DNA from: Nitrospirota bacterium
GTDB taxonomy: Bacteria; Nitrospirota; Leptospirillia; Leptospirillales; Leptospirillaceae
Reading direction: 5' to 3'
Assembly (NCBI GenBank): GCA_021816465.1
Contig: JAKAYF010000006.1
Coordinates: 1 to 50,283, forward strand
DNA length: 50,283 nt
Shown here: positions 30,471-32,626 of the stretch, one piece after another
Numbering within the stretch: position 1 is the first letter of the stretch
Layout of the letters: each line of letters begins with the position of its first letter
The notes under the pieces: model-generated
Told to the model about the DNA's origin: nothing
The model's input: only the letters and a program-made list of their open reading frames with translations
Databases searched by the model: none
Translations under genes and position numbers: made by a program

Positions 30471-30665
30471 ATGCGTAAAACGTTCAGGTATCGGCTGTAT
30501 CCGCCCCGCAAACAGGAAGCTCTCCTGAATCGACAATTGGAAGAGTGCCGCTGGCTCTACAACCATTTTCTGGAACACAGAAAGAACGCCTGGGAGTGGT
30601 ACGGCGTTTCCCTGTCCTATTACGGACAGCAGAACACACTCCCCAGGGTTGGTCTCATGGTCTAA
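30471..30665 (+). pseudogene. TnpB/OrfB (IS200/IS605-type) N-terminal remnant
   Basis: MRKTFRYRLYPPRKQEALLNRQLEECRWLYNHFLEHRKNAWEWYGVSLSYYGQQNTLP matches the TnpB N-terminus, then ends within a few codons. Confidence 0.85.
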
Positions 30666-32044: not shown

Positions 32045-32142
32045 GTCTTTTTGTCTGGTGTTTTTTCCGGATTGTTTCCAGTCGTTCATGGCTGTTGATT
32101 TTTGCCCGGACGGTGCTTTTGCTTTTTTTTCTCAATCCACAT

Positions 32143-32148
32143 TATAAT
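32143..32148 (+). promoter_or_regulatory. consensus TATAAT -10 box with upstream TTGCTT -35-like box
   Basis: TTGCTT-N18-TATAAT in an intergenic region. Confidence 0.6.
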
Positions 32149-32154
32149 ATTTTT

Positions 32155-32376
32155 CATGCAACGTGCTATAAGGCACGTGCCCGCAAAGCGGACACTAGGG
32201 CAGGAACTGTCCGAAGTCAAAGCCTCCTGCGATCCCGATAAGGCGCAAGGGTTCGAAGAACATTGTGTATCCTCGGGAATTTTGGTCGTGAGGCCGGATG
32301 CTGCCGCTATAGTGGCGGGAGGGTTCGTTTTGTTGGTATGGTATGCGAGGGGATTTGATCCCTCGTTTTCTTCTTT
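32155..32376 (+). ncRNA. candidate orphan structured RNA, family unassigned
   Basis: TATAAT promoter upstream; hairpin ACGTGC-TATAAG-GCACGT at the predicted 5' end; GCCGC-TATA-GTGGC hairpin; terminator CGAGGGGAT-TTG-ATCCCTCG + T-tract at 32346-32376; no convincing ORF. Confidence 0.55.
32346..32376 (+). terminator. Rho-independent terminator
   Basis: CGAGGGGATTTGATCCCTCG followed by TTTTCTTCTTTT. Confidence 0.8.
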
Positions 32377-32473
32377 TGTCATGATCCTGACCGGATCTTG
32401 ACAAGGGGTGGCAAAAGGTCGGCCGACTTTTTGGCAGTTTTTTGGGTCAATCATCAATCAGAGGAGAATCGCC

Positions 32474-32626
32474 ATGATTCACGCAATGCTGGCAAATTAC
32501 AAGTTCGGGACTTATTCACCGGCCGCTGATTTCAACCCAAATATAACGCTTTTCGTTATTTTTGTTGTTTTGGTCGGAGCAGCTGCACTGGTATCATTGA
32601 CCATCGTCAAGTCGTTCGAGAAGTAA
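32474..32626 (+). CDS. 50-aa single-TM membrane peptide
   Basis: GAGGAG RBS before ATG 32474: MIHAMLANYKFGTYSPAADFNPNITLFVIFVVLVGAAALVSLTIVKSFEK; TTGACA at about 32398. Confidence 0.65.
   Translation: MIHAMLANYKFGTYSPAADFNPNITLFVIFVVLVGAAALVSLTIVKSFEK

Follow-up and report, generated by a model that had tools for sequence, protein, structure and literature searches.

A probable tnpB-less guide-RNA unit of an IS200/IS605-type transposon behind pyrE in a Leptospirillaceae genome

The structured RNA located behind pyrE in the window (the whole analysed stretch of 50,283 nucleotides) is very probably a solo, tnpB-less reRNA/omegaRNA unit derived from an IS200/IS605-type transposon of this presumably Leptospirillum-like family, and this copy is probably an immobile, decaying remnant. 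The region 32130-32400 had originally been predicted as an orphan promoter-to-terminator unit encoding an unassigned structured ncRNA. Most of the elements named at that time were recovered, namely the TATAAT box, the hairpin ACGTGC-TATAAG-GCACGT and the hairpin GCCGC-TATA-GTGGC (32303-32316), and the lack of a convincing reading frame was confirmed, as the overlapping frames of 99 aa and 123 aa showed no Pfam match. The proposed orphan character, by contrast, was refuted by nucleotide search, which assigned the RNA to a multicopy mobile element. The determined features of the window copy, which extends from about 32100 to 32328, are summarized in Table 1.

Table 1. Features of the window copy and its surroundings (positions in the window).
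Feature	Position	Strand	Basis
TTGAT, target / TAM-like motif directly left of the element	32095..32099	+	Same TTGAT in the empty sites of G001 and G002
Transposon left-end remnant (TTTTGCCCGGACGG...), subterminal hairpin deleted	32100..32116	+	Aligned with other left ends
Leader comprising a T-tract and a TATAAT (32143-32148), a probable promoter lacking a good -35	32117..32148	+	Common to related solo copies
Two leader hairpins, ACGTGC-GCACGT (32161-32178) and GCCCGC-AAA-GCGGAC (32179-32193, one mismatch)	32161..32193	+	Folds, 14 leaders compared
reRNA/omegaRNA scaffold, ending at the right end of the transposon (GGGAGGGTTCGT, consensus GGGAGAGTTCAT)	32192..32328	+	Covariance model R1, alignment A1, blastn to tnpB-linked copies
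Guide position, flanking host DNA (TTTGTTGGTATGGTAT)	32329..32344	+	About 11 bp shorter than the empty sites of the congeners
Host-derived terminator-like hairpin in front of the next gene	32345..32366	+	Comparison with G001 and G002
Gene of a 50-aa membrane peptide, upstream region hit by the insertion	32474..32626	+	Behind pyrE in G001, G002 and more distant relatives

Structure and distribution of the RNA

The fold of 222 nt reached -90.7 kcal/mol with an MFE z of -3.58, which was below all 200 shuffles. The Rfam scan suggested with the original prediction gave nothing at the gathering threshold, and even at E<=10 nothing overlapped 32150-32328. The same holds true for the search of the whole window with the Rfam covariance models, GEMM included, at the gathering threshold, and for an Rfam search with a tnpB-linked scaffold. 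Together with the shuffle comparison, these scans uphold the original view of a structured ncRNA that no Rfam family covers. The identity as tRNA or tmRNA was rejected, as the corresponding scan gave one tRNA-Leu only, located elsewhere. No sigma-70 promoter was detected in a scan of the region and no good -35 was found; the TATAAT of the window copy lies in a leader shared with related copies.

A blastn search with the RNA resulted in 11 matches in its own genome (G000) and in 9, 5 and 4 matches in three other members of the family, while a sample of 20 genomes from elsewhere in the phylum gave no match. With the covariance model R1, built from 21 scaffolds including the window copy, the copy numbers were 16 for the own genome, 13 for a complete congener and 11 for each of two more distant relatives; outside the family, a sample of 118 genomes of the phylum gave a single weak match. 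The window scaffold scored 98.7 bits (E 1.1e-26) against this model, being itself among the 21 model sequences. In public records, the exact core was found in Nitrospirae MAGs. A search of plasmids with the scaffold of copy L018 gave no match, and the 25-base core pattern was not found as an exact match in IMG/VR.

Across the family the fold of the scaffold is conserved. In alignment A1, 13 pairs were changed on both sides compared to 7.9 in shuffles, with 3 of 500 shuffles reaching 13, and 85.8% of the cells were paired compared to 38-47% in slid versions. In the window copy, one of the scaffold hairpins is missing, as is the inner portion of the 3' hairpin. A candidate pseudoknot, CTCC-GGAG, shares its letters with this 3' hairpin. 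Conservation within the scaffold is highest in AGGGC...AAAGCCTCC, which had been thought to recall the GEMM core faintly, but an identity with GEMM is unsupported, as no Rfam match was obtained. Altogether, the RNA represents a family that is absent from Rfam, although the kind of RNA is already known.

Linkage to tnpB and the solo copies

The nature of the scaffold becomes apparent from its neighbours. Among 61 examined copies, 17 are directly preceded by tnpB sequence, several of them lying immediately behind the tnpB 3' end (e.g. ...CQRCGLTDNADRNAG...), while 14 carry a shared leader without tnpB, 26 are solo copies without the leader and 4 are cut by contig ends. The window copy belongs to the leader type and has no adjoining tnpB. 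In well-preserved copies the scaffold stops at the conserved ...GAGTTCAT, followed by unrelated flanking DNA, the guide. The neighbouring proteins are TnpB, with the Pfam domains HTH_OrfB_IS605, OrfB_IS605 and Cas12f1-like_TNB and an E of about 1e-16 against ISDra2 TnpB structures; their three RuvC motifs (D in GFDRG, E in VEDL, D in DNADRN) align with a solved TnpB-like nuclease. A cognate TnpB with intact RuvC motifs is encoded in the own genome (G000:C58:32983-34260). Full elements comprising tnpB and a divergent gene of a Y1 transposase (tnpA) are present in G000 and in the congener G002. Since the tnpA beside the sole intact cognate tnpB of the draft genome looks frameshifted, present-day mobilisation remains a prediction only.

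The window itself harbours an N-terminal remnant of a different TnpB subtype at 30471-30665 (+), 1.5 kb upstream of the RNA (HTH_OrfB_IS605, E 1.6e-13). As a source of the RNA it was rejected by sequence comparison by eye, its N-terminus being unlike that of the cognate TnpB.

The leader of the 14 tnpB-less copies comprises a left-end hairpin, a T-tract, a TATAAT-like box and usually two more hairpins, ACGTGC-GCACGT and GCCCGC-GCGGGC, which adjoin the scaffold; some copies no longer form both. In one copy (G019:C11b) the second stem was kept through a change on both sides (GCCTGC/GCAGGC). Twelve of these copies, the window copy included, were identified by blastn, one (G000:C97) from a nucleotide match and one (G008:C58) by eye. 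The leader alignment A2, in which row G000_C9 is mis-extracted, was read only and not counted. Compared with the tnpA-tnpB intergenic region as a candidate origin, the leader gave a best local score of 34, identical to the shuffle maximum of 34. Judged by their sequences, the 14 copies appear as a guide-only, non-autonomous family.

Apart from these, three copies (L031, L010 and L128, in G019:C29, G008:C52 and G000:C100) represent a second tnpB-less type, which keeps the left-end hairpin but has a different and shorter sequence (e.g. GGTCTATTTTTTCCTGCCAACCATGAAAAAATGTTT) ahead of the scaffold. One further solo copy, L130 (G000:C45), lies directly behind the 3' end of an apparent tRNA gene (...GGGTTCAAATCCCGCCTCTCGCACCA).

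We infer the following cycle of transcription, TnpB binding, cutting and mobilisation in trans. In the complete element with divergent tnpA and tnpB, the tnpB 3' end together with the right end would encode a scaffold of ~157 nt, the RNA would run over the right end, and the flanking DNA would thereby become the guide. A derivative that has lost both genes and carries the short leader with its TATAAT-like box and two hairpins would spread with proteins supplied in trans: its leader promoter would give an RNA of about 190-210 nt, which TnpB from an intact copy elsewhere would bind. The loaded TnpB would cut sites composed of TTGA-N and the guide, that is, a vacated or never-occupied target, and repair would copy the element back into the cut site. 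Cutting and copy-back by repair have been proposed for ISDra2 (PMC8612924).

Insertion site and competing interpretations

Both congeners (G001 and G002) lack the element behind pyrE. Their empty sites read GTTGATTTTTACTT(T/G)AAATC(G/A)TTGGTAT(G/C)GTAT, followed by a weak hairpin and the gene of the 50-aa peptide. In the window the element follows TTGAT and the right flank restarts at GTTGGTATGGTAT, with about 11 bp lost. At the place of this TTGAT, other copies show TTGAA, CTGAA or TTGAC-type motifs. The left ends used for comparison, from full-length and other solo copies, read e.g. TTGAACATTTGCCCGCGCATTCCCCTTCTTAGGCC...GGGTCAAGCGGGCGG. For one solo copy (C60) a clean empty site was found in G002, in which TTGAA is directly followed by the guide CCGCCAAAT; the element ends and the TAM-like motif are thereby fixed. 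The layout of a putative TAM followed by the guide is thus seen at the empty site of C60, while the window copy has the TTGAT but a shortened guide. Since the left-end hairpin is lost and both scaffold and guide are damaged, the window copy is most likely an immobile, decaying remnant.

A terminator-like hairpin is present where the original prediction had placed an intrinsic terminator, but it lies outside the element in host DNA. As the empty sites of the congeners are homologous to this stretch, the "terminator" represents a modified host sequence, with -12 kcal/mol compared to -6 and -8 kcal/mol in the insertion-free congeners.

The element entered the presumed promoter/5' UTR region of the 50-aa peptide gene downstream. 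It is worth considering whether the insertion mainly alters this upstream region, such that the element promoter and an extended -10-like GTTGGTATGGT (32337-32342) set the expression of the peptide. This view would fit the two motifs on either side of the insertion, TTGAT(T) and TATGGT, whose spacing in G001 and G002 resembles that of a weak -35/-10 pair. We regard it as unlikely to be the main role, with promoter elements predicted by eye only; moreover, it is compatible with the assignment as a guide-RNA unit and offers no alternative identity for the RNA. The peptide gene itself, flanked by pyrE and the PBP1A gene, is a conserved feature of the family, and the 72-aa frame containing the peptide showed no Pfam match.

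A further interpretation is that of a domesticated guide acting in trans, in which the window RNA would still be made and would load TnpB, or a dead relative of it, against a host or foreign target. The retention of the TATAAT leader and of much of the scaffold despite the loss of the left end is in line with this, as is the strengthened hairpin, which carries a U-rich tail and, lying right behind the guide, could serve to terminate the transcript. Furthermore, 8 of 14 changed pairs of the window copy still pair compared to 4.1 expected (P 0.024, uncorrected and for one copy), an excess that could mean continued maintenance. The pair-retention test is home-made, taking the consensus as ancestor and counting shared changes repeatedly, and its outcome for the classes is indicative only: tnpB-linked scaffolds, in which the coding frame enters the scaffold and may add constraint, appear to keep their pairs (24 of 53 compared to 13.6 expected, P 0.002), while the other scaffolds without tnpB seem to lose them as a class at a neutral rate (37 of 134 compared to 37.3 expected). 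This neutral decay of the solo scaffolds argues against domestication, and so do the scaffold hairpins lost in the window copy and its absence from both congeners. In addition, the guide has no second match at <=2 mismatches in the own genome (a draft of about 80% completeness); its 2-mismatch match in G002 is not preceded by a TTGA-N motif. Domestication is accordingly regarded as quite improbable.

A host sRNA or riboswitch-attenuator, suggested by the promoter-structure-terminator layout and the strong folding, is hardly credible, since the reading is contradicted by the empty orthologous sites in both congeners and the overlap with tnpB 3' ends in other copies, in addition to the many copies with differing neighbours and the missing Rfam match. 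Independent sRNA, riboswitch-attenuator and GEMM-like roles find no support for an RNA that elsewhere sits at the tnpB 3' end and stops at the transposon right end. The conservation between pyrE and PBP1A that had been proposed as a test was not found: since the RNA is absent behind pyrE in both congeners, it is not this position that is conserved but the transposon family.

Relation to known systems and significance

The assignment as a guide-RNA unit agrees with the RNA known from the right end of IS200/IS605 elements, whose scaffold is formed by the tnpB 3' end and the right end (PMC8612924, PMC10097598). Like the reRNA/omegaRNA of ISDra2 TnpB (PMC8612924, PMC10097598), the RNA described here shows the same place of the scaffold, a guide derived from the flank and a TTGAT-type motif at the left end. 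In contrast, its scaffold sequence is unmatched, and the window copy has no adjoining tnpB and possesses its own leader.

A second comparison concerns the palindrome-associated transposable elements, PATEs (PMC3119063), of which one from Halanaerobium retains the terminal 58 nt of tnpB together with the complete right end (PMC7290912). The family shares with them IS605 ends without transposase genes, an origin by internal deletion and the multicopy state, and copies such as C60 show the full PATE anatomy of both subterminal palindromes without transposase genes. Unlike PATEs, the family joins a promoter-like leader and hairpins to a complete guide-RNA scaffold. Since its left palindrome is missing, the window copy is a degenerate PATE-like member.

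RAGATH-18, the reRNA of IS607 TnpB, adjoins tnpB in 64% of its copies (PMC11061315). In this case, too, an unexplained structured RNA was eventually recognised as the guide scaffold of TnpB, and many of its copies do not lie next to the gene (PMC11061315). It belongs to IS607 elements, mostly of Firmicutes, and was detected by means of Rfam models (PMC11061315), while no Rfam model matches here. TnpB guide RNAs and IS605-derived PATEs are thus already known (PMC3119063, PMC7290912), and self-promoted guide-only elements may have been described before in the literature on TnpB-driven spread or omegaRNAs.

From the window RNA, for which no Rfam match was obtained, the HEARO or stand-alone IscB omegaRNAs differ by the IscB nuclease and another RNA fold. 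They likewise occur as guide-RNA copies without a neighbouring nuclease gene.

It is conceivable, though doubtful, that the self-promoted guide-only IS605 derivatives constitute a dispersed pool of trans-acting guides, with one nuclease guarding many loci and some guides, perhaps including the window copy, kept for host use. The finding adds a TnpB guide-RNA family unlisted in Rfam, together with a usable covariance model, and accounts for unexplained structured intergenic RNAs of acid-mine Nitrospirota. With few intact tnpB genes beside many solo guides in one genome, a possible in-trans function of guide-only elements becomes directly testable.
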